Assembly: GCF_011044975.1 (NCBI RefSeq)
Contig: NZ_JAAKZV010000052.1
Coordinates: forward strand, 1 to 39,451
From: Streptomyces coryli
GTDB lineage: Bacteria; Actinomycetota; Actinomycetes; Streptomycetales; Streptomycetaceae
Direction: 5' to 3'
DNA length: 39,451 nt
Position numbers and translations under genes: made by a program
Shown: piece after piece, positions 17,022-34,436 of the stretch
Position numbering within the stretch: position 1 is the stretch's first letter
Layout: each line of letters opens with the position of its first letter
The notes under the pieces: generated by a model
What the model saw: the letters and a program-made list of their open reading frames with translations, nothing else
What the model was told of the DNA's origin: nothing
Database searches by the model: none

Positions 17022-18677
17022 ATGCACACCCAGGAGCCGCGCGGCAGGCGCATACGCTTCGCCCGCCCCCGCCGCCTGGCGTCCCAGGTGCTCGCCGTCC
17101 AGCTCGCCCTCACCGCCGGCGTCACCCTCCTCGCCGCCGCCCTCTTCCTCGCCCCGCTCAGCAACAACCTCGACGACCAGGCCATGCGCCGCGCCCTCGC
17201 CATCGCGCAGACCACCGCCGCCGAGCCCGGCATGGCCGACCGCCTCCTCTCGTCAAAACCCACCCCTGACAACCCCGTCCAGCGCGAAGCGGACCGCATC
17301 CGCCGCGCCACCGGCGCCGAATACGTCGTGATCATGGACGAGCGCGGCGTCCGCTGGTCGCACACCGAGGCGCACCGCATCGGCAGCCACGTCTCCACCG
17401 ACCCGGAGCCCGCCCTCTCCGGCGCCGAGTGGATGGGCATCGACCACGGCACCCTCGGCCAGACCGCCCGCGGCAAGGTCCCGCTCCGCGACCAGAACGG
17501 CCGCGTGATCGGCGCGGTCTCCGTCGGCATCGCCTACGAGAGCGTCCGGGACCGCCTGGTCGGCGCGGTCCCCGGCATCCTGGCCTACGCCGGCGGCGCC
17601 CTCGCGGTAGGCGCGATCGTCGCCTACGCGCTCTCCCGCCGCCTCCAGCGCCGCACCCACGACCTGGCCTTCTCCGACATCTCCGCGCTCCTCGACGAGC
17701 GCGAGGCGATGCTGCACGGCATCCGCGAGGGCGTCATCGCCCTGGACAAGAACGCCCGCATCCGCCTGGTCAACGACGAGGCCCGCCGCCTCCTCGGCCT
17801 CACGGATACGGACGCGGCCGCCGTCACCGGCAAGCCTCTCGACGAAGCCCTCCCCCCGGGCCGTACGACCGACATCCTGGCCGGCCGCGTCACCGGCGAC
17901 GACCTCCTCGCCGTCAGCAACAGCCGCGTCCTCGTCCTCAACCGCATGCCCACCGACGACGGCGGCGCCGTCGCCACCCTCCGCGACCGCACCGAGCTGG
18001 AGCGCCTCGGCCGCGAGCTGGACTCCACCCGCGGCCTCATCGACGCCCTGCGCGCCCAGGACCACGAGCACGCCAACCGCATGCACACCCTCCTCGGCCT
18101 GCTCGAACTGGGCCTGACCGATGAGGCGGTGGACTACATAGCCGAGGCCGTCGGCGGCCACCGCGCCACCGCCGAGCAGGTCACCGGCCACATCCACGAC
18201 CCGCTCCTCGCCGCCCTCCTGGTCGGCAAGGCGACGGTCGCGGCGGAGCGCGGCGTGGAGCTCCACCTGGCCGGCAGCCTCCCGGACGAGGTCGTCGACC
18301 CGACCGGGCTGGTCACCATCGTCGGCAACCTCATCGACAACGCCCTCGACGCGGCCGTCGGCTCGCACGACCCCGAGATCGAGGTAGAGGTGGACGCGGA
18401 CGAAGGCGGCCGCGCCGTCCACCTCCGCATCGCCGACTCGGGCCCCGGCGTCCCGTACGACCAGCGCGACAAGATCTTCACCGAGGGCTACTCCACCAAG
18501 CGCCTCCCGCCCCACGGCGCCAAGCGCGGCATCGGCCTCCCCCTCGTCCGCCGCCTCGCCGAACGCCAGGGCGGCGAGGTCACGGTCGACGACCGCCCGG
18601 GCGGCGGCGCGGAGTTCACCGTCTACCTCCCGGAAGCCCTCCGCGAAGCGACACCGGCCCCCGCCCCGCAGCCCTAG
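17022..18677 (+). CDS. CitA/DcuS-type sensor histidine kinase, no response regulator nearby
   Basis: 551 residues. Membrane spans at about 22-44 and 183-203 flank an extracytoplasmic sensor of about 140 residues. A cytoplasmic PAS domain (about 225-325) follows. The phosphoacceptor is His348 in LRAQDHEHANRMHTLLGLLE, the DcuS/CitA form. ATP-binding boxes are visible: NLIDNALDA (436-444), DSGPGVP (472-478) and KRGIGLPLVRRL (from 501). Relatives sense C4-dicarboxylates or citrate and normally sit beside a CitB/DcuR-type regulator. The genes on both sides here are unrelated and no receiver-domain protein is encoded anywhere in the window. The gene has its own promoter and no Shine-Dalgarno. It converges on the SGNH gene with a 6-base gap. 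Confidence 0.93.
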   Translation: MHTQEPRGRRIRFARPRRLASQVLAVQLALTAGVTLLAAALFLAPLSNNLDDQAMRRALAIAQTTAAEPGMADRLLSSKPTPDNPVQREADRIRRATGAEYVVIMDERGVRWSHTEAHRIGSHVSTDPEPALSGAEWMGIDHGTLGQTARGKVPLRDQNGRVIGAVSVGIAYESVRDRLVGAVPGILAYAGGALAVGAIVAYALSRRLQRRTHDLAFSDISALLDEREAMLHGIREGVIALDKNARIRLVNDEARRLLGLTDTDAAAVTGKPLDEALPPGRTTDILAGRVTGDDLLAVSNSRVLVLNRMPTDDGGAVATLRDRTELERLGRELDSTRGLIDALRAQDHEHANRMHTLLGLLELGLTDEAVDYIAEAVGGHRATAEQVTGHIHDPLLAALLVGKATVAAERGVELHLAGSLPDEVVDPTGLVTIVGNLIDNALDAAVGSHDPEIEVEVDADEGGRAVHLRIADSGPGVPYDQRDKIFTEGYSTKRLPPHGAKRGIGLPLVRRLAERQGGEVTVDDRPGGGAEFTVYLPEALREATPAPAPQP

Positions 18678-18683
18678 CGCGCC

Positions 18684-19598
18684 TCAGCGCCCGCGCCCCG
18701 TCCTCCCCAGCTTCGCCAGCACCGCCACCGCCATCTTCTCCTCACCCGTGGCATTGGGGTGGAACGGCGCCGCCGGATTCGCCGGCACCATCGGCTCGAC
18801 CCACCGCTCCGCCGGCGGCTTGCACACGTCGTGGCCGATGCTCGGCGTGTACGTGTCCGCGAACTTGGCGCGGTTCACCCCGGCGACCGCCCGCAGCATC
18901 GAGTTCAGCCGCTTGCCCGTATCGCGCAGATACGGCACGTCGCCGTCCGCCATCTGCACGTCCGGGCGGCAGCCGACGCCGCTGTCCGGGACGATCACCG
19001 GATAGCCGACCACCACCACCCGGGCCCGCGGCGCCCGGTCGTGGATCGCGTCGAGCACCTTGTCGACCTTGAAGAAGGCCTCGCGGATGCGCTTGGACAG
19101 CTCGTCCTTGCCGCTCGCCTTGTAGTGCTTCTCGCACGGGTTCCCGGTCGGATCGGCGCCGGCGAGGGTCGTACAGGTGCCGATGATCTCGCCGAAGCCG
19201 ATGTCGTTGCCGCTGATACCGACCGTCACCAGCGTGGTGTCCCGGCTCAGCGCGTCCAGTTGCGGCGGGTTGGTGCCCTGCGCCTGCCACATCTCCTTGG
19301 TGGTGGCGCCGCCGCAGCTGACGTCCTTGAAGGACGCCACCCGGTGCCGCAGCGCGACATGCGTCGGGTAATTGTGGTCGGAGCGGGCGCAGTTGGCGTC
19401 CAGCTGCCTCGGGATGCCGGGGCCCGAGGTGTACGAGTCGCCGAGCGCGACGTAGCGCTCGCCGTGCTTCGGCGTGGCCTGCGCCGGCGCGCCCCCCGCG
19501 CCCAGTACGAGTGCCGCCGCCCCGGTCGCGGCGGTGGCCACCGCCACCCTGCGTCTCCTGCCGGCAGCACCCTTGGTCGTACGCGCGTCTGCGCCCAT
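18684..19598 (-). CDS. Secreted SGNH/GDSL esterase or lipase
   Basis: 304 residues. A basic N-terminus (GRRRRVAV) and an alanine-rich hydrophobic stretch ending at AQA near residue 41 form a signal peptide. Catalytic blocks: Ser55 in GDSYTSG, Gly97 in SCGGAT, Asn131 in GISGNDIGF and His280 in PFHPNATG. Position -3 from that histidine is Ala rather than Asp, as I recall for streptomycete enzymes with a Ser-His dyad. Cysteines at 70/95, 142/155 and 210/259 could form three disulfides. The ATG at 19598 has GGAGG 6 bases upstream; a longer reading to 19673 lacks support. It would hydrolyse ester bonds of lipids outside the cell. It appears independent of the neighbouring operon. Confidence 0.9.
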   Translation of the reverse strand: MGADARTTKGAAGRRRRVAVATAATGAAALVLGAGGAPAQATPKHGERYVALGDSYTSGPGIPRQLDANCARSDHNYPTHVALRHRVASFKDVSCGGATTKEMWQAQGTNPPQLDALSRDTTLVTVGISGNDIGFGEIIGTCTTLAGADPTGNPCEKHYKASGKDELSKRIREAFFKVDKVLDAIHDRAPRARVVVVGYPVIVPDSGVGCRPDVQMADGDVPYLRDTGKRLNSMLRAVAGVNRAKFADTYTPSIGHDVCKPPAERWVEPMVPANPAAPFHPNATGEEKMAVAVLAKLGRTGRGR

Positions 19599-19669
19599 CC
19601 CTGCCTCCACTCCCGTGACTTCCGCGTCACTTACCGGGAAGTAACAGTCCTGGCAGGGGTCGACACGTG

Positions 19670-20551
19670 TCAATGCCCGCGCACGAAGTCCGCCATCGCG
19701 CTCAGATCACGGTCCGCGTATCCCGCCTCCCCCGCCGCCCTGACCTGCCGGAGGTTGAAGGCGGCCTGCTCCATCGGCACCCCGGCCCGCTCGGCCCGGT
19801 CCAGGATCAGCTCCAGGTCCTTGGCGACCAGGCCGAGCGTGAAGCCGACGGCCGCGTCCTCGGGGTGCACGAACGCGGCCCGCTTGTAGTGCACGAAGGG
19901 CGCACCGGCCGCGCTCGCCGCGAAGACGTCGTACGCCATCTCGCGTGCCACCCCCGAGCGTTCCGCGAGCACCAGCGCCTCGGACAGCGCCAGATTCAGG
20001 CCGTGCACCACGGAGTTGAGCGCCAGCTTCATCACCGCGCCCGCCCCGCTGCCGCCGACATGGATGACGCGGGCGGCGAGGATGTTCAGCACCGGACGGG
20101 CACGCTCCAGCGCCTCGGCGGGGCCGCCCGCCATCACGATCAGCTCGCCGTGCTCGGCGAAGGCCACGCTGCCCGAGACGGGTGTGTCGAGCAGCACGGC
20201 GCCCTGCTTCTCGGCAAGTGCGGCTAGCGCCGCCACCGTTTCCGGGGCGATGGTCGAGGTCTCCAGGACGACGCTGCCGGGCCGCAGCCCGACGGCGATG
20301 CCGTCGGCGCCGCCGTACGTCCCGGCGGCCGCGGCGTCGTCGGCGAGCGAGACCACGACGACATCCGCGGCCGCGGCGGCCTCCCGCGCCGTAGCGACGA
20401 CGACCGCGCCGGTACGGGCCGCCAGCTCCTCCGCCGTGGCCCGCGTCCGGTTGTACACGGTCACCGCGATCCCGGCCTCGCGCAGCCGCCCCGCCATGGC
20501 GGCGCCCATCCGCCCGGTGCCGACGACGGCGATGCGTCCGACGCCGCTCAC
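19670..20551 (-). CDS. NAD(P)-dependent 3-hydroxyisobutyrate-dehydrogenase-like enzyme
   Basis: 293 residues. The Rossmann motif is VVGTGRMGAAMAGRL (residues 10-23); Arg35 in YNRT suggests NADP. The substrate motif DTPVSGS is at 122-128 and the catalytic lysine is Lys175 in GAVMKLALNS. The family (also tartronate semialdehyde and imine reductases) reduces beta-keto or semialdehyde acids, or oxidises the hydroxy acids. It begins with GTG overlapping the stop of the SDR gene and is the last gene of the ten-gene cluster. The natural substrate is not deducible; the cluster suggests a hydroxy-acid or semialdehyde intermediate. Confidence 0.88.
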   Translation of the reverse strand: MSGVGRIAVVGTGRMGAAMAGRLREAGIAVTVYNRTRATAEELAARTGAVVVATAREAAAAADVVVVSLADDAAAAGTYGGADGIAVGLRPGSVVLETSTIAPETVAALAALAEKQGAVLLDTPVSGSVAFAEHGELIVMAGGPAEALERARPVLNILAARVIHVGGSGAGAVMKLALNSVVHGLNLALSEALVLAERSGVAREMAYDVFAASAAGAPFVHYKRAAFVHPEDAAVGFTLGLVAKDLELILDRAERAGVPMEQAAFNLRQVRAAGEAGYADRDLSAMADFVRGH

Positions 20552-21249
20552 CGCAGCAGCCAGCCGCCGTCGACCGGCAGGCCGACCCCGTTGACCGCGC
20601 CGTTGCGCAGCAGGAAGTCCACCGCGTCGACCACGTCGGCCATCCCGGCCAGCCGGCCCGTCGGCGTACGGGAGCGGATGCCCTCAAGCGCCGCGGGCGG
20701 CTTGTCGCGCCAGTACGGGCTGTCGCCGACGATGCCGGGGTGGACGGCGTTGACCCGGACCGGGGCGAGCTCGGCGGCGAGGGTGCGCACCATGCCGTCG
20801 ACGCCGGCGTTGACCGTCGTCACCGTGGTCGAGCCGGGGTACGGGCGGGCTCTGGCCTGGCCGCCGAAGAGCACGACCGCCGCGTCCGCGCCGAGCCGGG
20901 GGCGCAGCGCGTGCACGACCTCCGTGTAGCCGACCAACTTGAGCGTGACCAGCGCCAGCGCCGCCTCGATGTCGTACTCCGCCACCGAGTTCTCGTCCCG
21001 GCTGATGGCGGCCAGCACCAGCGCGTCCACCCGCTGGATGCCCTCCAGCGCCGCGGCGATCTCCCGCGGCCGCGCCAGGTCGAGGGCCAGCCCCCGGGCA
21101 CCGCACTCCTTCGCCACCGTGGCCGCGCGGTGCGCGTCGCGGCCGGTGAGCACCACGTCGTCGCCCACGGTCGCGTACCGGCGGGCGATCTCCCGGCCGA
21201 TGCCGGCGGTGCCGCCGACGACGACCACGCTCCTTGCCGTTCCCGTCAT
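20548..21249 (-). CDS. SDR-fold protein lacking the catalytic Ser-Tyr-Lys
   Basis: 233 residues. The N-terminal nucleotide-binding motif is intact (GGTAGIGREIARRY, residues 12-25), and the C-terminal half aligns well with classical short-chain dehydrogenases (GMVRTLAAELAPVRVNAVHPG). The catalytic positions do not: the Tyr and Lys of the YxxxK motif fall at Val143 and Asn147 in TVTTVNAGVDG, the serine region reads VVLFGGQ, and the NNAG loop reads LVLAAIS. It may be a non-redox binding or regulatory protein, or use other residues. The ATG at 21249 overlaps the bicupin stop (ATGA) and the stop overlaps the next gene. Confidence 0.86.
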   Translation of the reverse strand: MTGTARSVVVVGGTAGIGREIARRYATVGDDVVLTGRDAHRAATVAKECGARGLALDLARPREIAAALEGIQRVDALVLAAISRDENSVAEYDIEAALALVTLKLVGYTEVVHALRPRLGADAAVVLFGGQARARPYPGSTTVTTVNAGVDGMVRTLAAELAPVRVNAVHPGIVGDSPYWRDKPPAALEGIRSRTPTGRLAGMADVVDAVDFLLRNGAVNGVGLPVDGGWLLR

Positions 21250-22127
21250 CGCTTCTCCTCCAGCCGCTGCCTCAGGTAGTCCCAGTCGCGCGCGAACCGG
21301 TACGAGTGCCGCGACGGCGGCTGCGGCGCCTGTGTCTCCAGCCATCGCACGGGCCCCGTACCGGCATTGGCGAAGGAATGCACGCAGCCCGCCCCCGCCC
21401 ACGCGAGGTCGCCCGGGCCGAGGCGGTGCCGCGTCCCGTCGAACTCGGCGTCCACGCTGCCCTCGAGGATCAGATACGTCTCCTCGAAGGGATGGTCGTG
21501 CGCCCCGGCGGCGCCGTCCGGCTCGTACTGGACCATGAACATCGTCGAGGCCACCGCGCCCAGATCGCCGTCGACCATCATCTTCACGGTGATCCCGCTG
21601 TAGACGAGCAGCGCGGTGCGCATGCTCGCCGAGACCGCGAGCAGGTCCTGGCGCTGCTTGCCCGGGTCCATGTGCGCGGGCTCGAAGTGGCCGAAAGCGC
21701 GCGTGCGCGGGTCGCGTACGTCCACCGGCCGCGGCTCCCGCGCGGGCAGTTCGGGCACCGCCTCCGTATCGTGCCCGTACCGCGCCCGGGGCACCGGTGC
21801 GAGCATGTCGGCCCAGCGGGCGGGGCCCTCGCCCGTACCCCGCCAGGCATGCGGCACGCCGACGGGCAGCAGGCCGTAGTCGCCCGGCCGCAGCAGCCAC
21901 GAGCCCTCGGGGGTGTCCAGCGCGACGGCGCCGGACAGCACGAAGAACGACTCCTCGTACGCGTGCACATGCGCCCCCACCGCGCCGTCCGCCGCCAGCT
22001 CGCAGACGCCGAAGCCGGTGTGCACCGCGCCGTCGCGCTCGCCGACCGCCGCCCAGCGGGAGAGGCCCGGCTGCCCGGTGGCGGCGAACTCCGCGTCCGC
22101 CGCCCGCCGTACCAGATGCGCACTCAC
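21246..22127 (-). CDS. Bicupin metalloprotein, probable enzyme
   Basis: 293 residues with two cupin barrels. Each keeps a full set of metal ligands: His53, His55, Glu59 and His93 in the first (GAHVHAYEESFFVLSG ... PVGVPHAW), and His210, His212, Glu216 and His250 in the second (AHDHPFEETYLILEG ... GAGCVHSF). Bicupins include gentisate dioxygenases, oxalate decarboxylase and (S)-ureidoglycine aminohydrolase. The sequence alone does not choose among them, but two intact sites argue for an enzyme rather than a sensor. The GTG at 22127 overlaps the amidohydrolase stop with no Shine-Dalgarno, so translation is probably coupled. Context points to a step acting on the amidohydrolase product. Confidence 0.85.
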   Translation of the reverse strand: MSAHLVRRAADAEFAATGQPGLSRWAAVGERDGAVHTGFGVCELAADGAVGAHVHAYEESFFVLSGAVALDTPEGSWLLRPGDYGLLPVGVPHAWRGTGEGPARWADMLAPVPRARYGHDTEAVPELPAREPRPVDVRDPRTRAFGHFEPAHMDPGKQRQDLLAVSASMRTALLVYSGITVKMMVDGDLGAVASTMFMVQYEPDGAAGAHDHPFEETYLILEGSVDAEFDGTRHRLGPGDLAWAGAGCVHSFANAGTGPVRWLETQAPQPPSRHSYRFARDWDYLRQRLEEKR

Positions 22128-23488
22128 TGCCGCGGCGCCCGGGACGCGACCGCGGCCAGCAACCGGTCGCGGGACTCCTCGACCAGCCGCCGGGCGCGGG
22201 CGGTGTCGGCGAGCAGCCGGCCGTCCCGCTTCTTGACCTCGCCGGCTACGAGGACGGTGTCGACGTTCGACACGTCGGCGCTCAACGTCACCGCGGCCAC
22301 CGGGTCGTGCACGGGCGCCACGTTGAGCGCGGTCGCGTCGATGGCGACGACATCGGCCTGCTTGCCGGGGGTGAGCGAGCCGGTACGGTCCCCGAGCCCG
22401 GCGACGTGCGCGCCGTCGAGGGTGGCGAGCCGCAGCATCCGGCGGGCGGTGAGCATCGTGTCCGGGATGGGGGTGTCGGCCTGCCAGCACTCGGCGTTGA
22501 CCCGGGCGCGCTCGGCGCCGAAGGCGGAGCGGATCTGGGTGAACATATCGCCCGGCGCGGTGGTGACCACGTCGATGCTGAGCGACGGCCGCAGGCCGTA
22601 TTCGATGGCCTTCATCACCGGCGGCCAGCCATGGCCCATCTGGGTCTCGACCTGCGGCGCCACGGAGATGGTGCCGCCGCTGTCGGCGACCATCCGCCAC
22701 TCCTCGTCGCTGAGATAGCAGCTGTGCACGTACGTGGTCGGCGGGGTGTCAGGACCCAGCAACCCGAGGTCGTGCAGCTGCTTCACCATGCCGAAGCGGC
22801 CGGCGACCCGGCCCATCGCGACGTGCACGGTGATCGGGAGGTCCAGCTCGCGGGCGAGCCGCCATTCGCTGATCACCACGTCGCTGATGCAGAAGCCGGG
22901 CCCGCGGGTGGCGAGGCCCATGGTGAGCAGCCCGTCGTCCGAGGAGAAGTACGCCGCGCGGACTCGGCGCACATCGTCCGCCGGAATCGCGATCTTGCTG
23001 TCGTACCAGTAGTCGGCCAGCGAGGTGTTGGCGCTGCCGTACGCGTACTGGGCGCGGATGCCCGTCTCCCGCAGCGCCTGCAGGGCGGCGTCGGGGTGCT
23101 CGGGCGTGTTGTTGATGTGCGACCAGTCGACGAGCGTGGTGATGCCGGCGTTCAGGCACTCCAGGGAGCCGGCGAGGTTGCCCGCGTACACGTCCTCCGG
23201 CCGGTAGACGGGCGCGAAGGTGTCGAGGACCTCGGTGAAGTAGTCGTCGAGGGTGGCGTCCGGCGCGCAGCCGCGGATGGACGCCTCCCAGGTGTGGCGG
23301 TGGGTGTCCACGAAGCCGGGGATGACGATGCGCCCGGTCATGTCGAGCACCTCGGCGTCGGCGGAGATCTCCCGGTCGACCGCCGCGATCTTCCCGTTCT
23401 CGATCAGGACGTCCCCCTGGGCCAGGTCCCCGAGCTCCGGGTCCATGGTGAGCACCTGGCCTCCGCGCAGCAGCTTGCGCTCGCTCAT
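22124..23488 (-). CDS. Amidohydrolase-superfamily protein, TrzN/AtzA-like
   Basis: 454 residues. Metal ligands of the superfamily are visible: His63 and His65 in DTHRHTW, His222 in VHVAMG, His255 in VHSCYLS and Asp306 in SIDVVTT. The nearest groups are triazine hydrolases and purine or cytosine deaminases. In most of these the third histidine is followed three residues later by a glutamate (HxxE) that handles the substrate proton; here that position is Met225. The substrate may therefore lack an amidine. The ATG at 23488 has AGGAGG and GAAGG upstream. It lies 29 bases after the E1-beta stop, the largest gap inside the catabolic block. Confidence 0.88.
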   Translation of the reverse strand: MSERKLLRGGQVLTMDPELGDLAQGDVLIENGKIAAVDREISADAEVLDMTGRIVIPGFVDTHRHTWEASIRGCAPDATLDDYFTEVLDTFAPVYRPEDVYAGNLAGSLECLNAGITTLVDWSHINNTPEHPDAALQALRETGIRAQYAYGSANTSLADYWYDSKIAIPADDVRRVRAAYFSSDDGLLTMGLATRGPGFCISDVVISEWRLARELDLPITVHVAMGRVAGRFGMVKQLHDLGLLGPDTPPTTYVHSCYLSDEEWRMVADSGGTISVAPQVETQMGHGWPPVMKAIEYGLRPSLSIDVVTTAPGDMFTQIRSAFGAERARVNAECWQADTPIPDTMLTARRMLRLATLDGAHVAGLGDRTGSLTPGKQADVVAIDATALNVAPVHDPVAAVTLSADVSNVDTVLVAGEVKKRDGRLLADTARARRLVEESRDRLLAAVASRAPRQ

Positions 23489-23517
23489 CGCCGTGCCGCC
23501 TTCCTCCTGTGGGGTGT

Positions 23518-24498
23518 TCAGTAGTGGGCCAGGCCGCGGACCGCGGCCACGACCTTGTCGACCGTCGGGATGACCTCGTCCTCCAGCGCGTCGGCGAAGG
23601 GCAGCGGGACGCACTCGCCGGCCACCCGGCGTACCGGCGCGTCCAGCAGGCCGAAGCCCTCGTCGGCGACGATCGATACGAGCGTGCCGCCCCAGCCGCC
23701 CTGGTACGGGTTCTCCTCCACGGTCAGCAGCCGCGAGGTCTTCCGCAGTGACGCGAGCACCGTCGCCATATCGAGCGGCACCAGGCAGCGCAGGTCGATC
23801 ACTTCGGCCGAGATGCCTTCCGCGGCGAGCCGCTCGGCCGCGGACAGCGCGACGGGCACCATCGAGGCCAGCGCGACCAGCGTGACGTCGGCCCCTTCCC
23901 GTACGACCGCGGCCCGGCCCAGCTCGACGACGTGCCCGTCGGGCGGCACTTCGCCCTTGACGGCCAGCAGCGCCTTGTGCTCGAAGAGCACCACGGGATC
24001 GTCGCTGCGGATCGACGCGGCCATCAGGCCGATCATGTCCGCGGGGGTGGCGGGGGCCGCGATTTTCAGTCCGGGGACGGTGAGCGCCCAGTTCTCCGTG
24101 GCCTGCGAGTGCTGGGCGCCGAAGCCGAGGCCCCCGCCGTTGGCGGTCCGCACCACCAGCGGCACGGTGACCTGGCCGGCCGTCATGTAGCGGACCTTGG
24201 GGATTTCATTGGCGAGGTAGTCCCAGCAGCAGGCCAGGAAGTCGGAGAACATGATCTCCGCGACCGGTCGCAGCCCGGTCATCGCGGCGCCCATCGCCGC
24301 CCCGGCGATGGCCTGTTCGGAGATCGGCGTATCCCACACCCGCTCCGGGCCGAACTCCTTGAACAGCCCCGCGGTGGTCTTGAACACCCCGCCCGCCGCG
24401 CCGATGTCCTCGCCCAGGCACACCACCGCGGGATCGCGGCGCATCTCGCGCGCGATGCCCTCGGCGACCGCCTCCCGGTAGGTGATCACGTCCGCCAC
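23518..24498 (-). CDS. 2-oxoacid dehydrogenase E1 component, beta subunit
   Basis: 326 residues of the transketolase-like E1-beta family: ITYREAVAEGIAREM, VCLGEDIGAAGGVFK, DTPISEQAIAGAAMG and the C-terminal LLTVEENPYQGGWG are all typical, with Glu30 in the position that activates thiamine diphosphate. The GTG at 24498 is preceded by GGAGG at 6 bases and overlaps the alpha-subunit stop by 13 bases; a GTG at 24489 is possible. E1 decarboxylates a 2-oxo acid and passes the acyl group to a lipoyl E2. No E2 or E3 is encoded in the window, so a shared E2 must serve it, or it works without one. Confidence 0.92.
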   Translation of the reverse strand: MADVITYREAVAEGIAREMRRDPAVVCLGEDIGAAGGVFKTTAGLFKEFGPERVWDTPISEQAIAGAAMGAAMTGLRPVAEIMFSDFLACCWDYLANEIPKVRYMTAGQVTVPLVVRTANGGGLGFGAQHSQATENWALTVPGLKIAAPATPADMIGLMAASIRSDDPVVLFEHKALLAVKGEVPPDGHVVELGRAAVVREGADVTLVALASMVPVALSAAERLAAEGISAEVIDLRCLVPLDMATVLASLRKTSRLLTVEENPYQGGWGGTLVSIVADEGFGLLDAPVRRVAGECVPLPFADALEDEVIPTVDKVVAAVRGLAHY

Positions 24499-25463
24499 GC
24501 CGCACCTCCGTCGGCCCATACGTCGGTGAGCGCGGCGGCCGGGTCCGGCCCCGGCGCGCTCTTCGCGGCCGCGACGGCCTGCGCGACGAGGTGCTCCGCC
24601 CGATCGTCGGCCGCGGCGATGTCCTTGTCGTTTACGCCGGCTGACAGAAGCCGTCCGCGCGCCAGGTCGAGCGGATCGTGCTTCAGCCACTCCTCGACCT
24701 CCGCGGCCGGGCGGTACGCGGCCGGGTCGGAGCGGCTGTGCCCGAAGTGCCGGTACGTCAGCGCCTCCAGGATCGCCGGGCCCTCCCCGGCCCGGGCCCG
24801 CCCGGCCAGCGCGGCCACCGCCTCCCGGACCAGCACGACGTCGTTGCCGTCCACGACCTCGCCGGGAATGCCGTACGCCGGGGCCCGGTCGGCGGCAGGG
24901 CGCGGCACGGCGGTCACGTCGGCGATCGCGGTGTACTCCATGTACAGGTTGTTCTCGCACACGAACAGCACCGGCAGCCGCCACACCGCGGCCAGGTTCA
25001 ACGCCTCGTGGAAGGCGCCGATGTTGGTTGCGCCGTCGCCGAAGAAGGCCACCGCGATCTGCCCGGTGCCGCGCAGCTTCGCCGACCAGGCGGCGCCGGC
25101 GGCCATCGGGAGGTGCGAGCCGACGATGGCGTACGAGCCGAGCATCCCGGCCGCCGCCTTTGTCAGGTGCATCGAGCCGCCCTTGGCCCCGCACAGCCCG
25201 GTCGCCCGGCTCATCAGCTCGGCCAGGCACTCCTCCGGCGTGGCACCGCGGGCGATGGCGTGGTGGTGGCCGCGATAGGTGGCGAAGACGTAGTCGTCGG
25301 CGCGCAGCGCGGCGCTCGCGCCGACGGCGATCGCCTCGTGCCCGGCGGCCAGGTGGGTGGTGCCCTTGACCAGGCCCTGCAGAAACAAGTCGTGGGCGGC
25401 CCGCTCGGTGCGGCGGATCACCGCCATCTGCTCGTACGCGCCGAGGAGCTCAGCGGGCCTCAC
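24486..25463 (-). CDS. 2-oxoacid dehydrogenase E1 component, alpha subunit
   Basis: 325 residues. The thiamine diphosphate motif runs from GDGATN (142-147) to CENN (169-172), and the RHFGHSRSDP loop matches the region phosphorylated in eukaryotic E1-alpha. AGHEAIAVG and YRGHHHAIARG are typical of the acetoin/pyruvate/branched-chain group. The GTG at 25463 overlaps the M24 stop as GTGA. It forms a heterotetramer with the beta subunit encoded next. The preferred 2-oxo acid cannot be read from the sequence; acetoin-type and pyruvate-type enzymes are both close. Confidence 0.92.
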   Translation of the reverse strand: MRPAELLGAYEQMAVIRRTERAAHDLFLQGLVKGTTHLAAGHEAIAVGASAALRADDYVFATYRGHHHAIARGATPEECLAELMSRATGLCGAKGGSMHLTKAAAGMLGSYAIVGSHLPMAAGAAWSAKLRGTGQIAVAFFGDGATNIGAFHEALNLAAVWRLPVLFVCENNLYMEYTAIADVTAVPRPAADRAPAYGIPGEVVDGNDVVLVREAVAALAGRARAGEGPAILEALTYRHFGHSRSDPAAYRPAAEVEEWLKHDPLDLARGRLLSAGVNDKDIAAADDRAEHLVAQAVAAAKSAPGPDPAAALTDVWADGGAAWRT

Positions 25464-26794
25464 CGCTCTCCCCTGCCCGCCCGGGTGTTGAGGTGCGACT
25501 GCGCCTCGCGGCGGGTGTCGAGCTCACCGCCCACGGTCCAGTACTTGCGCCCGGCGACCAGCAGCTCCTCGGCCGGGAACTTGGTGATGACCTCGCAGCC
25601 GTCCGCGGTCACCACCACTTCCTCCTCGATACGGGCCGCCGACCAGCCGTCCGCGGCCGGCCAGTACGTCTCGAGCGCGAAGACCATGCCCTCCTCCAGC
25701 ACCTCCGGATGCTTCGGCGAGACCAGGCGGCTGAAGATGGGCTTCTCCCAGATCGACAGGCCGACCCCGTGCCCGTACTGCAGGGCGAAGGCGGCAGTCT
25801 CGTCCGGGAAGCCGAACTCCTCGGCGCGCGGCCACACCGCGACGATGTCCGCGGTGGTCGCGCCCGGGCGGACGAGAGCGATGGCCTCGTCCATGTACTC
25901 CCGGCAGCGGGTGTAGGCGTCCCGCATGGCGGGCGAGGCGCTGCCGACGGCGAAGGTGCGGTAGTAGCAGGTGCGGTAGCCGAGGTGGCTGTGCAGGATG
26001 TCGAAGAAGGCGGGGTCGCCGGGGCGGATCAGCCGGTCGCTGTAGACGTGCGGGTGGGGTGAACAGCGCTCGCCGGAGATGGCGTTGACGCCCTCGACGT
26101 ACTCGCTGCCGAGGTCGTAGAGCGCCTTGCTGACGACGCCGACGCACTCGTTCTCGCGCACCCCGGGGCGCAGATACCCGTACAGCTCCTCGTAGGCCGC
26201 GTCCACCATGGCGCAGGCCTGGGTGAGCAGGGAGATCTCGTCGCGGGTCTTGAGTCGCCGGGCTGCCAGGAACAGCTGCTGGCCGTCCACCACATCGATG
26301 CCCTCGGCCTTGAGGGCGGCCAGCACCGGCATCTCGGCGAGGTCCACGCCGAGCGGTTCGCCGCCCATGCCGTGCTCGCGCAACTCCCCGGCCACCTTGG
26401 CGGCGACGTCCTCGGCGATGCCGGCGTCCGGGTGAAAGGCGCCGCGCAGCGTGGAGATCCCGGCGCGGGCGCCCGTGGGCTCGCCCTCCTTACCGCCGTG
26501 GTCCAGCCAGGGGTTGTAGAGCTGGTGGTGGCGGGCCGCGGAGCCGAAGTCCCAGATCACCGGCTCGGCGCCGCGGACGAGGAGGGCGAAGCGGATGAGC
26601 TTGTCCATCGCCCAGGTGCCGATGTGCGTCGACGTCATATAGCGGATGTTGGAGAAGTCGAAGCTGAGCACCGCGCCGAGCTCGGACTCCTCGAGGGCGG
26701 CCTTCAGCCGGGCCAGCCGCTCGGTCCGTAACCGCGCGAGATCGACACGCTCCTCCCAGTCGACCGCGCCTTGCCCGAATGTGCGGACCGCCAT
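25460..26794 (-). CDS. M24-fold (DddP/creatinase-like) protein with a changed metal site
   Basis: 444 residues with the creatinase N-terminal domain (AVLSFDFSNIRYMTST) and a pita-bread C-terminal domain. Four of five metal positions are recognisable: Asp265 in PAFFDILHSH, His342 in YGHGVGLS, Glu375 in FALETYW and Glu391 in RIEEEVVV. The second aspartate, 11 residues after the first, is Cys276 (GYRTCYYRTF). The N-terminal region recalls DMSP lyase DddP, an M24 protein that is not a peptidase. It is probably a lyase or hydrolase of a small molecule. The ATG at 26794 has GAGAGGGG 8 bases upstream; a GTG at 26803 sits on top of that site. It is the first gene after the regulator and has a candidate promoter. 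Confidence 0.85.
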   Translation of the reverse strand: MAVRTFGQGAVDWEERVDLARLRTERLARLKAALEESELGAVLSFDFSNIRYMTSTHIGTWAMDKLIRFALLVRGAEPVIWDFGSAARHHQLYNPWLDHGGKEGEPTGARAGISTLRGAFHPDAGIAEDVAAKVAGELREHGMGGEPLGVDLAEMPVLAALKAEGIDVVDGQQLFLAARRLKTRDEISLLTQACAMVDAAYEELYGYLRPGVRENECVGVVSKALYDLGSEYVEGVNAISGERCSPHPHVYSDRLIRPGDPAFFDILHSHLGYRTCYYRTFAVGSASPAMRDAYTRCREYMDEAIALVRPGATTADIVAVWPRAEEFGFPDETAAFALQYGHGVGLSIWEKPIFSRLVSPKHPEVLEEGMVFALETYWPAADGWSAARIEEEVVVTADGCEVITKFPAEELLVAGRKYWTVGGELDTRREAQSHLNTRAGRGER

Positions 26795-26833
26795 GGCGTC
26801 CACCCCTCTCCAGCCGGAGCCCGCTCAACTGAC

Positions 26834-26862
26834 AGTGAACGACCGCCCGGTGAGAGTGTCAA
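26834..26862 (-). promoter_or_regulatory. Candidate promoter before the M24 gene
   Basis: On the minus strand a perfect TTGACA (26857-26862) overlaps the regulator's stop codon and is followed after 17 bases by TTCACT (26834-26839), a weak -10. The related stretches ACAGTGAAC (26832-26840) and ACACTGAAC (26866-26874) flank it and could be regulator sites. The catabolic genes may thus be transcribed both from here and from further upstream. Confidence 0.45.
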
Positions 26863-27491
26863 GGCACACTGAACACCACCCAGACGCCGACCGCCGGTTC
26901 CTCGCCCTCGTTGCGGTAGCGGTGCGGAGTCGTGGATTCGAAGCAGACGGCGTCGCCAGGGCGCAGCGTGTGCTCCTCGAAGCCGAGGGTCAGGATCAGC
27001 TCGCCCGCGGTGAGGTAGCCGTACTCGGTGCCCGGGTGCCGCATCAGCCCGCCGGTGCTGGAGGAGGAGCCGCCGGGGCGGTAGGTCACCTGCAGGAAGT
27101 CGGTCTCGGTCCCGGGCACATGGCCGAGCCGCTCCCACACCACACCGGAGTCCAGCTCCAGCCGCTCCCGCTCGTCAGGGCCGGTCAGCGGGCCGATCCG
27201 GCGGGCCGGCTCCGCGGCCAGCGCGGCGAGCGCGCCGAGCACGGTGCCGGGGGCGGCGGCCGGTGCGACCGCGTCCTCACGGACCTCGAAGAGGTGGTCG
27301 ACGGTGACGGACAGCGCCGTCGTGATCGCGTACAGGGTGCTCACGGACGGCTGGCTCTTGCCGTTCTCGATCTGCGAAACGAGGCTCGCGGATACGCCGA
27401 TCTCGCGCGCCAGCCGCCGCAGGCTCCAGCCGCGATCCAGGCGCACCTGGCGGATCCGGTCGCCGACAGGCGGCACGGCGGCTGGGGACAC
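26859..27491 (-). CDS. XRE-family regulator with C-terminal cupin sensor
   Basis: 210 residues. A helix-turn-helix of the XRE type occupies about residues 12-66 (LAREIGVSASLVSQIENGKSQ). A cupin domain follows at about 135-205 (HPGTEYGYLTAGEL ... PGDAVCFESTTPHRY). Such proteins, for example PuuR, regulate use of small amines, amino acids and organic acids, with the cupin as sensor. It starts with GTG at 27491, GAGGAG 7 bases upstream, and lies between the symporter and the catabolic genes on the same strand. It is the obvious local regulator of the cluster. Confidence 0.9.
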   Translation of the reverse strand: MSPAAVPPVGDRIRQVRLDRGWSLRRLAREIGVSASLVSQIENGKSQPSVSTLYAITTALSVTVDHLFEVREDAVAPAAAPGTVLGALAALAAEPARRIGPLTGPDERERLELDSGVVWERLGHVPGTETDFLQVTYRPGGSSSSTGGLMRHPGTEYGYLTAGELILTLGFEEHTLRPGDAVCFESTTPHRYRNEGEEPAVGVWVVFSVP

Positions 27492-27527
27492 GGGCGGCTC
27501 CTCTGCGTGGCCAACGGCTGGGCCGTA

Positions 27528-27543
27528 CAGCCTAATTGAACAC
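27528..27543. promoter_or_regulatory. AT-rich island upstream of the XRE-cupin gene
   Basis: The run CAGCCTAATTGAACA (27528-27542) stands out in the 72-bp gap between the symporter stop and the regulator start. It may hold a promoter or regulator site. No full -35/-10 pair or long palindrome could be assigned. Confidence 0.25.
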
Positions 27544-27563
27544 CGCCGGAGCCGCAGCCGAGC

Positions 27564-29171
27564 TCACACGGCCCCGGCCCCCGTCAGCGCCCGCACCTCG
27601 GTCTCCGCGTGCCGCGCCGGGTCGGCGGGCTCGTGGGAGAAGCGGGTGCCGAGCCAGCCCGCCAGGAAGCCGAGCGGTACGGAGACAAGACCCGGGTTCT
27701 GCAGCGGGAAGTACGCGAAGTCGAGGCCGGGGAAGAGCGCGTCGGGCCGCCCGGACACGACCGGCGACAGCGCCACCAGGAGGAGCGCGGGGATCAGCCC
27801 GCCGTACACCGCCCACACCGCGCCGCGGTGCGTGAAGCGGCGCCAGAACAGCGCGTACAGCAGCACCGGCAGATTCGCCGAGGCCGCCACCGCGAAGGCG
27901 AGGCCGACGAGGAAGGCGACGTTCTGGCCGCGGGCGAGCAGCCCGAGCCCGATCGCGACGGCCCCGATCGCGCCCGCCGCCACCCGCGCGACCGCGACCT
28001 CGCTGCGCTGCTTGGCGTGCGCGTGCCGGCGGCGCCGCAGCGAGGCGTACAGGTCGTGGGCGACCGAGGCGGACGACGCCAGCGTGATGCCGGCGACCAC
28101 GGCGAGGATGGTGGCGAAGGCGACCGCGGCCACGATCGCGAAGAGCACCGCGCCGCCGGTCGACCCCGCTCCCCCGCCGAGGTCGAGGGCGAGCAGCGGG
28201 ACAGCGGTGTTGCCCGCGGCGTTGTCGGTACGGACCGCGTCGGTGCCGAGGATCGCGGCGGCGCCGAAGCCCAGCACGATCGTCATCAGGTAGAAGCCGC
28301 CGATGAGGCCGATCGCCCAGACCACCGAGCGCCGGGCGGCGCGGGCGGTCGGGACCGTATAGAAGCGGGCGAGGATGTGCGGCAGGCCCGCGGTGCCGAG
28401 GACAAGGGCGATGCCGAGGCTGATGAAGTCGAGACGATTGCCGAGCGTGCCGCCGTATTTCAGCCCCGGGGCGAGGAAGTCGCGGCCGTGTCCGCTGCGT
28501 TCGGCGGCCGTGGACAGCAGCGCGCCCAGGTCGCCGTGGAAGCGGATCAGCACCATCACGGTGAGCGCGATCGCGCCGCCCATCAGCAGGACAGCCTTGA
28601 CGATCTGGATCCAGGTGGTGGCGCGCATGCCGCCGACGACCACGTAGAGCACCATCAGGCCGCCGACCCCGGCGACCGCGGCCGACTGCTCCGCGCCGCC
28701 GCTCGCGCCGACCAGCAGCGCGACGAGGCTGCCCGCGCCGACCATCTGCGCGACGAGGTAGAGGACCGAGACGGTGACGGAGGAGATGCCGAGGGCGAAG
28801 CGGACGCGGCGCTCGCGCAGCCGGGCGGCGACGACGTCGGCGAGGGTGAAGCGGCCACAGTTGCGGACGAGTTCGGCGACCAGCAGCAGCACGACCAGCC
28901 AGGCGACGAGGAAGCCGACGGAGTAGAGCATTCCGTCGTAGCCGTAGAGGGCGATGAGCCCGGAGATGCCGAGGAAGGACGCGGCGGACATGTAGTCGCC
29001 GGAGAGGGCGAAACCGTTCTCCATGGGCGAGAACAGCCTGCTGCCGGCGTAGAACTCCTCCGGCGAGCCGTGCCGGTTGCGCCCCGCCCACGAGGTGATC
29101 GCGAGCGTCAGCAGCACGAAGGCGCTGAACAGGAGCAGCGCGAGGGTCTGGTGCTCGGCGAGGCCCCTCAC
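27564..29171 (-). CDS. Sodium/solute symporter (SSS family, ActP-like)
   Basis: 535 residues with about 13 membrane spans. SSS-family signatures are clear: EEFYAGSRLFSPMENGFALSGDY in two adjacent halves around SRLFSPMENG, then SAASFLGISG, VVGGMRATTW and the GTLGNRLDFISLGIALVLGT region. ActP-type members import acetate and other short monocarboxylates with sodium. The GTG at 29171 overlaps the stop of the DUF485 gene, the same pair order as yjcH-actP in E. coli. Its place ahead of the XRE-cupin regulator and catabolic genes makes it the likely importer for that pathway. Confidence 0.92.
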   Translation of the reverse strand: MRGLAEHQTLALLLFSAFVLLTLAITSWAGRNRHGSPEEFYAGSRLFSPMENGFALSGDYMSAASFLGISGLIALYGYDGMLYSVGFLVAWLVVLLLVAELVRNCGRFTLADVVAARLRERRVRFALGISSVTVSVLYLVAQMVGAGSLVALLVGASGGAEQSAAVAGVGGLMVLYVVVGGMRATTWIQIVKAVLLMGGAIALTVMVLIRFHGDLGALLSTAAERSGHGRDFLAPGLKYGGTLGNRLDFISLGIALVLGTAGLPHILARFYTVPTARAARRSVVWAIGLIGGFYLMTIVLGFGAAAILGTDAVRTDNAAGNTAVPLLALDLGGGAGSTGGAVLFAIVAAVAFATILAVVAGITLASSASVAHDLYASLRRRRHAHAKQRSEVAVARVAAGAIGAVAIGLGLLARGQNVAFLVGLAFAVAASANLPVLLYALFWRRFTHRGAVWAVYGGLIPALLLVALSPVVSGRPDALFPGLDFAYFPLQNPGLVSVPLGFLAGWLGTRFSHEPADPARHAETEVRALTGAGAV

Positions 29172-29695
29172 TGCTGCGGGTCCTCCTTCGGCTTACGGGC
29201 CTCGGCCGCCGAGTTCGTCTGCATCGTGACGTCCCAGCGCAGCTCCATCGCGGGCTGGTCGCGGCGGAGCCGGGCGTGCCTGGCGTAGGCCCAGGTGAGG
29301 AGGAAGGTGGTGACGAACTGGCCGAGGCCGGCCAGTATCGCGACGTTCACCACGCCCGCGACCTTGTGTGCCATCAGCCCCGGGGCGGCGGTCGCGGCGA
29401 TGACGTAGGCGAGATACCAGCCGAGGAACGCGATGGCGGCGGGCACCACGAAACGCCGGTACTGGTTGCGGACGTGCTGGAACTCCGGGCTCTGCTGGAC
29501 CTCCAGATACAGCTCGGAGTCGTCGGCGGGCGGCCGCGGCCCCGGGACGGCGGCGGCCGCGGCGCGCGGGGCGGGCATCCAGCGGTCCGGCTCCGGATCG
29601 TCCCAGGCCCCCCATCCGGAGGCCAGCTCGTCGTGCCAGGGGTCGTCGAGCGCCGCGGCCGGTGCGTGTCCCTCGGCCGCCTCGTGCTTGTCCAC
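29168..29695 (-). CDS. DUF485 membrane protein, partner of the SSS symporter
   Basis: 175 residues. A long acidic, alanine/proline-rich cytoplasmic N-terminus (about 80 residues) precedes two membrane spans (VVPAAIAFLGWYLAYVIAA and NVAILAGLGQFVTTFLLTW), the compact DUF485 core, followed by a basic tail. The GTG at 29695 was chosen for its ideal GAGGGAG site 5 bases away; an ATG at 29722 lacks one. It overlaps the symporter start and is the first gene of the ten-gene run. The 159 bp upstream (29696-29854) holds no gene and no promoter I can assign with confidence. Confidence 0.85.
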   Translation of the reverse strand: MDKHEAAEGHAPAAALDDPWHDELASGWGAWDDPEPDRWMPAPRAAAAAVPGPRPPADDSELYLEVQQSPEFQHVRNQYRRFVVPAAIAFLGWYLAYVIAATAAPGLMAHKVAGVVNVAILAGLGQFVTTFLLTWAYARHARLRRDQPAMELRWDVTMQTNSAAEARKPKEDPQQ

Positions 29696-29854: not shown

Positions 29855-30778
29855 CTACACATTTCCGCCCGTGCACATGACCGCCACCCGCCGCCCGGCG
29901 AACCGGTCGGGGTAAGTGTGCAGCGCGGCCAGCGCCGCCGCGCCGGCGCCCTCGGCGAGGGTGTGGGCGTCGCGGGCGAGGATCTGCCGGGCCTGCTCGA
30001 TGACGGCGTCGTCGAGCAGCAGGAAGTCCTTCAGGCGCTGTTTCAGCACCAGTTGCGGCAGCGCGAAGCCGCTGCCGGTGGCGAGGCCCTCGACGGCGGT
30101 GCGGTTGGGCCGCTCGACGATCTCGCCGGCCCGCCAGGAGTCGTGCGCGGCGGGCGCCTCGGCGGACTGCACGGCGACGACCTCGGCGTGCGGCGCGAGG
30201 GCGGCGGCGACGATGCAGGCGGCCGCGGCACCGGAGCCGCTGCCGACCGGGACGATCACGGTGTCGGTGCGCGGGGCGTCCTCGAAGAGCTCGAAGTACG
30301 CGGTGCCGACGCCCGCCAGGATGGCGGGCTCGTTCGCCGCGCTGACGAGCCGCATGCCGCGCTCGCTGGCGAGCTTCTCGGCGTACGGGCGGGCCTCGTC
30401 GAAGTTCGCCCCGTACTCGACGAGTTCGGCGCCGAGGGCCGTAACGGCGCGCGCCTTGCCCGGGTTGGGGTCGCGCGGCATGACGATGGCGCAGGGGACG
30501 CCGAACTGCGCGGCGGCGTAGGCGAGGGACTGGGCGTGGTTGCCGGTGGAGTAGCCCACGACGCCGCGGGCTCGCTCGCCCGGCTCCATCCCGGCGAGCA
30601 GGGTGAGCCCGCCGCGGACCTTGAAGGCGCCGGTGGGCTGGACGTTCTCGTGCTTGACGGTGAGGGAGGCGGCGGGTCCGTGGTCGAGCGTCGGATACGA
30701 CCAGGCCGGGGTGGGCGGCAGGTGCCGCCGCAGCAGGGTGCGGGCTTCGAGGACATCGGTGATGGTGGGCGGCTGCAT
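29855..30778 (-). CDS. Threonine-dehydratase / serine-racemase-like PLP enzyme
   Basis: 307 residues, fold type II. The PLP lysine is Lys53 in PTGAFKVRGG, the asparagine loop is YSTGNHAQSLA, and the phosphate-binding glycine loop is PVGSGSGAAAA. There is no C-terminal ACT regulatory domain, so it resembles the short catabolic threonine/serine dehydratases, serine racemase or hydroxyaspartate dehydratase. Products would be a 2-oxo acid and ammonia. It is divergent from a LysR gene, which probably controls it. The 2-oxo acid could feed the nearby E1, but the gene is separated from that cluster by 159 bp and there is no direct link. Confidence 0.88.
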   Translation of the reverse strand: MQPPTITDVLEARTLLRRHLPPTPAWSYPTLDHGPAASLTVKHENVQPTGAFKVRGGLTLLAGMEPGERARGVVGYSTGNHAQSLAYAAAQFGVPCAIVMPRDPNPGKARAVTALGAELVEYGANFDEARPYAEKLASERGMRLVSAANEPAILAGVGTAYFELFEDAPRTDTVIVPVGSGSGAAAACIVAAALAPHAEVVAVQSAEAPAAHDSWRAGEIVERPNRTAVEGLATGSGFALPQLVLKQRLKDFLLLDDAVIEQARQILARDAHTLAEGAGAAALAALHTYPDRFAGRRVAVMCTGGNV

Positions 30779-34007: not shown

Positions 34008-34436
34008 GTAAGTTCGCTCCTCGCTGAATTCAGGTGTGTGGTGCCTGGTGGCGCCGGTCAGAGGGTACCGACCCCTTGGCGGGACTGGTGTGCAGGCACT
34101 TGCTCGTGGCTCCATGCTAGTACCGTGTCGAGCAGATGTTCGATCCCTCGAAGGAGTGACGTCCACATCACGTTCCCATCCCGGCATGAACCATTTAGGC
34201 TCCGGGCACGTCCTCATGGACAACCGGCAAGCCAGCCGGCAAGGACGACCCCTGTAATGAAGCGAAAAGCCCAGCAGCGCACCAAAAATGCACTACGGCA
34301 CATTTCGCCGCCACCCCGTCGGCATCTGTCCGCTGTGAGCGAACCCACCCCGAGGCAAAGCCCGAGCGGGAACGTTTTCGGCCTGGTTGGATGTTGACCC
34401 TGGTACGACAGCTCGTCGAGCTAGAGAAGAGGCGAC
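34008..34436. other. 429-bp non-coding region between parE and the DUF7455 gene
   Basis: No convincing gene is seen. It holds the parE leader and promoter region (to about 34145), a LexA-like palindrome, a locally AT-richer segment at 34255-34310, and near the right end GGGAACGTTTTCGG (from 34369) and TTGACC (34394-34399) that could belong to promoters for the small gene. A 46-codon reading at 34257-34397 begins without a ribosome site. Confidence 0.5.
34128..34143. promoter_or_regulatory. LexA (SOS) box candidate upstream of parE
   Basis: TCGAGCAGATGTTCGA differs at one base from the actinobacterial SOS-box form TCGAACNNNNGTTCGA (read on the other strand: TCGAAC-ATCT-GCTCGA). It sits directly upstream of a TACTAG hexamer on the parE strand, where LexA would block transcription. 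Confidence 0.45.

Follow-up and report, generated by a model that had tools for sequence, protein, structure and literature searches.

The DNA analysed here, called the window, is a stretch of 39,451 nucleotides (nt) from Streptomyces coryli (contig NZ_JAAKZV010000052.1). At positions 19670-29695 it holds ten genes, all on the minus strand, which an initial annotation had presented as one catabolic cluster; domain and profile scans returned the families named there, and the single strand and the six gene overlaps were confirmed. The conserved operon that is our subject begins with a gene for an XRE-cupin regulator (26859..27491; PF01381 and PF07883, Cupin_2). Behind it lie genes for an M24 pita-bread hydrolase (25460..26794; PF00557, Peptidase_M24), the alpha (24486..25463; PF00676, E1_dh) and beta (23518..24498; PF02779/PF02780, Transket_pyr/Transketolase_C) subunits of a thiamine pyrophosphate (TPP)-dependent dehydrogenase E1, a TRZ/ATZ-type amidohydrolase (22124..23488; PF01979, Amidohydro_1, and PRK08204), a bicupin with two Cupin_2 stretches (21246..22127), and an SDR-fold protein lacking the catalytic YxxxK (20548..21249; PF13561). 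A beta-hydroxyacid dehydrogenase of the HIBADH family (19670..20551; PF03446/PF14833, NAD_binding_2/11) is an optional last gene. An SSS symporter of the ActP/MctC type (27564..29171; SSF) and its DUF485 partner (29168..29695; PF04341) are neighbours outside the operon.

The overlaps measure 4 nt for DUF485/symporter (29168-29171), M24/E1-alpha (25460-25463), amidohydrolase/bicupin (22124-22127), bicupin/SDR (21246-21249) and SDR/HIBADH (20548-20551), and 13 nt for E1-alpha/E1-beta (24486-24498). For M24 we preferred the start at ATG 26794, where relatives start, over GTG 26803. Base composition gave no sign of a foreign origin, GC content at third codon positions being 0.92-0.97 across all ten genes. 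A consensus promoter scan found no promoter, and a terminator scan gave 2 terminator-like sites vs 1.6 in shuffles.

Extent and distribution of the operon

Loci were gathered by an M24 alignment scan of species genomes (the best 80 of 562 relatives) and by bicupin searches of Streptomyces and phylum samples. The 47 Streptomyces loci reduce to 45 distinct ones, as the pairs L014/L132 and L021/L137 each carry an identical bicupin. The initial annotation had proposed a search for the same gene order across Actinobacteria, and the order proved to be kept together and not unique to this strain. XRE, M24, E1 alpha, E1 beta, amidohydrolase, bicupin and SDR genes run uninterrupted on one strand, with less than 400 nt between matches, in 41/45 distinct Streptomyces loci, an arrangement beyond chance. 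The part from M24 to SDR is complete in 7/53 other loci, from Micromonospora (L036), Nocardioides (L037), Propionibacteriales (L039), Virgisporangium (L041), Micromonosporaceae (L043), Actinomadura (L049) and Jiangella (L053). The bicupin also adjoins the SDR gene in L055, L062, L063 and L084, where the layout differs.

Four Streptomyces loci fall outside the chain rule: L017, in which the contig ends; L035, with its bicupin in pieces; L122, which has all eight genes in order and is excluded by the gap rule alone; and L130. At this last locus (G212:C1:1406000-1422500) the SDR, bicupin, amidohydrolase and E1 genes are present and M24 and XRE were not found in the fetched stretch; it is possibly a decaying copy of the operon.

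The ten genes are thus two units: DUF485 with the symporter, and the operon from XRE to SDR with its optional HIBADH-like gene. Of the cluster as first drawn, the XRE-to-SDR block stands and the symporter pair does not belong. The XRE gene is present in 44/45 Streptomyces loci and within 12 kb of M24 in 36/49 other loci. A HIBADH-like gene occurs in 5/45 Streptomyces loci, and any HIBADH-like gene within 12 kb of M24 in 37/49 others; it stands in line behind the operon in L012, L036, L037, L039, L041, L043, L123, L135 and L136. This 12-kb table has 46 Streptomyces rows, both duplicates included, and 49 others, left from 74 once 25 with a flank shorter than 6 kb had been removed; Streptomyces plasmids that lack the operon (L004, L005) are counted among the others. 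Loci L140-L171 were labelled by BLAST to previously found proteins rather than by Pfam/NCBIfam.

A bicupin search of 295 Streptomyces genomes gave 41 with a match, of which 37 were full-length at more than 70% identity, one was a fragment and three lay at 35-36%. In a phylum sample of 396 genomes, which includes the known carrier G001, M24 was found in 31, the bicupin in 17 and both in 16 (hypergeometric p = 3.8e-19, kinship uncorrected). Among the loci gathered as above, M24 identity is 87-91% in the Streptomyces operon loci and 51-85% further out.

A palindromic site shared by the operon and its scattered homologues

A palindromic operator (GTGTTCAGTGTGCCTTGACAC; 26856..26876, minus strand) lies upstream of M24 and extends into the end of the XRE gene; at 15.5 it has the highest score in the window. 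Its right half contains TTGACA, with TTCACT 17 nt beyond, and the two may be -35 and -10 elements. Upstream of XRE, a weaker operator-like site (27523..27543, minus strand; score 9.5, under the cut-off of 11.5) might serve autoregulation. The 9-mer CATTGAACA was present in 43/47 XRE upstream regions, and in 44/44 measured Streptomyces loci a site upstream of M24 matched GTGTTCAGTGACACTTGACAC at 16-21 of 21 positions.

A symmetric operator model was built from 16 typed sites, with the cut-off at 11.5. It returned 161 sites above the cut-off (158 distinct contexts) in 101/120 loci, of which 24 are identical to training sites and so not independent; as controls, shuffled sequences yielded 6, 2 and 7 sites and 200 kb of other Streptomyces DNA yielded none. 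A called gene start stands within 250 nt of 141 of the sites, none is located solely inside a gene, and for 20 there is no called start nearby. Outside Streptomyces operons, the window included and both flanking genes counted at divergent sites, they stand near genes for M24 (25), XRE (14), amidohydrolase (11), SDR (7), bicupin (4), HIBADH-type enzymes (7), ribose-type transporters (8), fused E1 (2), PRISE (2) and others; branched-chain-type transporter genes follow an operator once, in other taxa. A search of six whole genomes for the pattern with at most one mismatch gave 6 occurrences in 5 genomes, every one at the operon locus (control 0). When the model was trained on Streptomyces alone, the M24-upstream site scored better than every local control in 22/52 other loci. 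One palindromic site is shared by the operon and by scattered homologues in other taxa.

Catalytic positions and gene neighbourhoods

The canonical M24 ligands are D, D, H, E and E (D209, D220, H284, E313 and E327 in 1pv9). The second Asp is replaced by Cys279 in 85/85 rows of the M24 alignment, and D268, H345, E378 and E393 are each kept in 85/85 (numbering from the 447-residue reading that starts at GTG 26803), so that the dinuclear metallopeptidase site is not intact. The predicted M24 structure has a mean pLDDT of 62.0, and because the model is weak its fold matches carry little weight.

The amidohydrolase scores 633 bits with PRK08204 (cut-off 391), a model titled hypothetical protein. 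H63, H65, H222, H255 and D306 are kept in 39/39; the Glu of the cytosine-deaminase-type HxxE, aligned with HIHE of 4f0r, is lost, the motif reading HxxM225 (Met in 33/39, Asp in 6/39). The bicupin has an invariant metal site (H210, H212, E216, H250) in its C-terminal cupin, and its N-terminal site is partly lost in some relatives. Quercetin dioxygenases give both its best sequence match and its best Z, families low in or missing from the fold lists not being excluded thereby. At the classical YxxxK of the SDR-fold protein the Tyr column holds V and the Lys column N in 45/45; the Gly-rich motif is kept, and a YxxxK string off the catalytic columns lies within residues 111-180 in 22/45. Both E1 subunits are as expected for a 2-oxo acid dehydrogenase: the GDG...NN stretch of E1-alpha aligns with human pyruvate dehydrogenase E1-alpha, and E1-beta aligns with the 2-oxo acid dehydrogenase beta subunit 1um9_B. 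The HIBADH-like enzyme has both superfamily domains, NAD_binding_2 and NAD_binding_11, and reached no curated cut-off among the models listed.

Around M24 in the 49 other loci we counted E1 in 31, XRE in 36, HIBADH-like in 37, bicupin in 21, amidohydrolase in 24 and MDR in 13; over all 74 the counts are 44, 47, 46, 32, 33 and 18, respectively. A PRISE-like gene occurs in 8/74 and never with a bicupin (32) or an amidohydrolase (33). MDR and bicupin share 0 of the 49 kept loci (p = 1.4e-4), but they meet once among the 74, in L161, and we therefore do not lean on the MDR exclusion. We read the PRISE/MDR pattern, with kinship uncorrected, as alternative upper parts over a common lower part.

The TPP function is supplied by differing proteins, namely separate E1 alpha and beta, a fused E1, or an acetolactate-synthase-like enzyme (L038). 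In L038 (408-11751) M24 is accompanied by this last enzyme, an adjoining aldehyde dehydrogenase, and citryl-CoA-lyase-like and CoA-transferase-like genes; the TPP enzyme and aldehyde dehydrogenase lie 7 kb from M24. E1 alpha and beta are followed by a gene like succinate-semialdehyde dehydrogenase (SSADH) in L157, L163, L167 and L171. On Pacificitalea and Phaeobacter plasmids (L006/L007), M24, E1 alpha, E1 beta, a lipoyl protein, SSADH and E2 stand in a row, which in L007 also holds lpdA, with a ribose-type ABC transporter near. Of the further components of a 2-oxo acid dehydrogenase complex, E2 was found near M24 in 16/49 other loci and at 0/46 Streptomyces operons, and lpdA near M24 in L002/L088 and L007.

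RidA is found near M24 in L084 and, by BLAST labels, in L157 and L161. M24 relatives also lie on plasmids of Paenarthrobacter strains studied as sulfonamide degraders (L088/L089): on that of R1 near an annotated flavin reductase SulR and RidA, and on that of SD-1 in a region with an HsaA-like monooxygenase, an amidase and RidA. Upstream of some Streptomyces operons and on the opposite strand, as in L010 (1818-4923), are glutamine-synthetase-like, Amidohydro_2 and DUF4916 genes (19, 18 and 21 loci, respectively); the pairing is FluG-like, and plain synteny is sufficient to explain this neighbourhood.

A proposed catabolic pathway and its alternatives

We favour, at a probability of roughly 0.55, a dedicated catabolic operon under its own XRE-cupin regulator, in which the amidohydrolase, bicupin and SDR-fold protein form an upper part that feeds a lower part of M24 and the TPP-dependent E1. 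What was observed directly is the conserved unit, the operator, the residue changes and the co-occurrence of genes. Catabolic operons that carry their own regulator are a known kind of system; we found no description of this cluster in the open-licence PubMed Central literature, and as far as that literature shows the gene combination and altered sites are undescribed, in line with the initial view of a catabolic-looking cluster matching no described pathway.

The order of steps, their chemistry, the nitrogen content and the action of the regulator are proposed from families and residues. The regulator would sense the substrate or an intermediate through its cupin and then leave the operator, which covers the possible -35. 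The amidohydrolase, bicupin and SDR-fold protein would be consecutive upper steps on a small, probably nitrogen-containing substrate, opening or rearranging it by hydrolysis, metal-dependent oxygenation or isomerisation, and a redox or tautomer change. Here the amidohydrolase would work with a retained mononuclear metal site and no deaminase Glu, the bicupin with its one invariant metal site, and the SDR-fold protein with a nucleotide motif and no YxxxK; the HIBADH-like enzyme, if present, may take a beta-hydroxy or formyl intermediate. M24, as a putative non-peptidase hydrolase or lyase, would cut a non-peptide bond of the upper-part product, and E1 would decarboxylate the resulting 2-oxo acid or cleave an acyloin, yielding acyl-CoA with a shared E2/E3 or an aldehyde if it acts alone. 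Nitrogen is suggested because of the amidohydrolases, of RidA in L084, L157 and L161, and of the Paenarthrobacter plasmid with RidA, amidase and HsaA-like monooxygenase. The substrates put forward earlier (betaines, ureides, hydroxy acids and sulfonio compounds) are not favoured by the analysis.

More tentatively, the operon may be one form of a widespread, undescribed pathway of re-purposed folds. In it, a Cys-site M24 cleaving a non-peptide C-N or C-C bond would feed a TPP-dependent E1, with alternative upper modules (amidohydrolase, bicupin and atypical SDR, or MDR dehydrogenases and a PRISE-like reductase), one XRE-cupin operator across actinobacteria, and M24 relatives in Acidobacteria-labelled metagenome-assembled genomes and on alphaproteobacterial plasmids.

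Several observations weigh against the catabolic operon as we propose it. The loci of the species-genome scan were chosen by M24 match (the best 80 of 562), so their context counts are biased towards M24. No E1 lies within 12 kb in 18/49 other loci and no bicupin in 28/49, so neither partner is indispensable to M24. Upper parts do not strictly exclude one another: MDR meets bicupin in L161 and amidohydrolase in L058 and L069, and an MDR-like gene lies within 12 kb in the Streptomyces operon loci L019, L022 and L023. PRISE/MDR loci have no nitrogen enzyme among their labelled genes, and the nitrogen guess may therefore be wrong. The Streptomyces-trained site upstream of M24 fails to beat local controls in 30/52 other loci, several of which have operator-like sites before other genes of the same locus. 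Of the kinds looked for, E2, aldehyde dehydrogenase and transporter genes lie within 12 kb of 0/46 Streptomyces operons. Three carriers have 6, 4 and 5 E2-like matches vs 4, 5 and 4 in three Streptomyces without a bicupin match; as the matches are no more numerous than in non-carriers, a dedicated extra E2 was rejected.

Within the proposed catabolic operon it is possible, if not especially likely, that E1 cleaves an acyloin or 1,2-diketone, in the manner of AcoAB, and is not a 2-oxo acid enzyme. The acetoin reductase model (cut-off 304) gives 256 bits for an SDR found near some M24 relatives, and E1, E2 and SSADH stand together in L005-L007. The closest curated models of E1 are nevertheless those of pyruvate dehydrogenase E1, and the acetolactate-synthase-like enzyme with aldehyde dehydrogenase in L038 fits 2-oxo acid decarboxylation.

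It seems improbable that the block serves tailoring or detoxification instead of catabolism that supports growth. Its distribution is patchy (a full-length close bicupin in 37/295 Streptomyces genomes), and no transporter of the tabulated kinds lies near the Streptomyces form; against this, ribose-type and once branched-chain-type transporter genes stand behind the operator in other taxa, and no biosynthetic gene appeared in the scanned selection of flank proteins. A nitrogen pathway of the ureide or purine type, with the bicupin acting like ureidoglycine aminohydrolase and the amidohydrolase as a base deaminase, is quite unlikely: the bicupin reaches 26.4 bits with the ureidoglycine aminohydrolase (ura-cupin) model TIGR03214, whose cut-off is 200, and best matches quercetin dioxygenases, and HxxE is lost from the amidohydrolase.

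We find it hard to credit a ten-gene unit in which the SSS symporter and DUF485 import the substrate. The shared strand and the spacing of 72 nt between symporter and regulator genes speak for it, as does the score of the symporter as a monocarboxylate carrier (732 bits with the NCBIfam MctC model, cut-off 670). The symporter nevertheless matches in 100/101 Streptomyces genomes (E <= 1e-150), and SSS and DUF485 each occur in 0/100 loci of the gene-order table and, within 12 kb of M24, in 0/46 Streptomyces and 0/49 other rows. We fetched ten symporter loci, two belonging to operon carriers and eight drawn from the ten highest-ranking matches. The order from a ParE-like gene to the symporter is kept in 10/10 (in the window we take 31881-34223 to be ParE); DUF485 was recognised beside the symporter in 9/10, and a DcuS/DpiB-like sensor kinase flanks its other side in 9/10. 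No operon gene was recognised in any of them, and tblastn with XRE, M24, HIBADH and an SGNH-type gene was negative; the distance between operon and symporter is about 1.5 Mb in carrier G003 and 1.0 Mb in carrier G072. No site above 11.5 is near DUF485 in the window, and the only one near the symporter is the M24 operator beyond XRE. The claim that the symporter is the operon's importer and DUF485 a member is thus not supported; in our reading the pair is an unrelated neighbour, and the operon's position beside it is one of placement or replacement.

In the window the eight-gene block sits, together with a gene at 18684-19673 that we take to be of the SGNH type and for which an NCBIfam search gave 0 families, between the symporter and the kinase (17022-18677). 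A gene adjoining the kinase in relatives, presumably a response regulator from its first residues in four of them, was not found in the window (best tblastn E 0.91), where the SGNH-type gene and the operon take up its position. Upstream of DUF485 lies a threonine-dehydratase-like pyridoxal phosphate enzyme (29855-30778), which reaches the cut-off of none of the 25 NCBIfam models listed, with a divergent LysR-type regulator adjoining it.

Least credible of all is known M24 chemistry (cleavage of dimethylsulfoniopropionate (DMSP) by DddP, creatinase, or ectoine hydrolysis by DoeA) with the remaining genes as its lower pathway, since M24 scores 122 bits with the DddP model NF043017 (cut-off 600) and 63.1 and 50.8 bits with the ectoine hydrolase models NF038259 (575) and TIGR02993 (613), the DddP residues are not kept, and no creatinase model was among the profile matches, creatinase being compared by fold only. 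The DddP D297 and D307 positions hold Leu/Ile/Met and Cys in 85/85 M24 rows, and one pairwise alignment sets D377 opposite a gap; we take D377 to be catalytic and the other two to be ligands. DMSP and ectoine chemistry were rejected on these scores and residues, and of the label DddP/creatinase-like the fold survives and DddP family membership does not.

The operon is highly conserved and recurs in several lineages, and offers a way into a soil carbon or nitrogen route that has been missing; its operator provides a reporter with which the inducing compound can be sought directly. Since canonical catalytic positions are changed family-wide in three enzymes, name-based annotation (Xaa-Pro peptidase, amidohydrolase, SDR) may be misleading for many genomes, and for M24 the possible mislabelling reaches at least 562 relatives.

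Among known systems, nicotinate fermentation offers an analogy of logic only: an amidohydrolase (enamidase) is combined there with a HIBADH-family enzyme acting on a formyl intermediate (2-hydroxymethylglutarate dehydrogenase), although enamidase 2vun matches our amidohydrolase weakly (E 2.6e-6). Bicupin dioxygenases (quercetinase, gentisate/salicylate dioxygenase) and ureidoglycine aminohydrolase share 11-18% identity with the bicupin, which differs in its single invariant site in the C-terminal cupin. With the TRZ/ATZ amidohydrolases (atrazine chlorohydrolase, MTA/SAH deaminase, TrzN) the operon's enzyme has in common HxH, two more His and the metal Asp, but carries HxxM, or in a minority HxxD, for HxxE. 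E1 resembles the alpha2beta2 E1 of pyruvate and acetoin dehydrogenases in its TPP stretch and E1-beta core, whereas the Streptomyces operons have no nearby E2. M24 differs from DoeA/EutD and creatinase in scoring under the ectoine cut-offs and in its genomic partners. With DddP it shares the pita-bread fold, and D268, H345, E378 and E393 align with what we take to be DddP metal ligands; it departs from DddP at the D297, D307 and D377 positions and in a score far under the cut-off.

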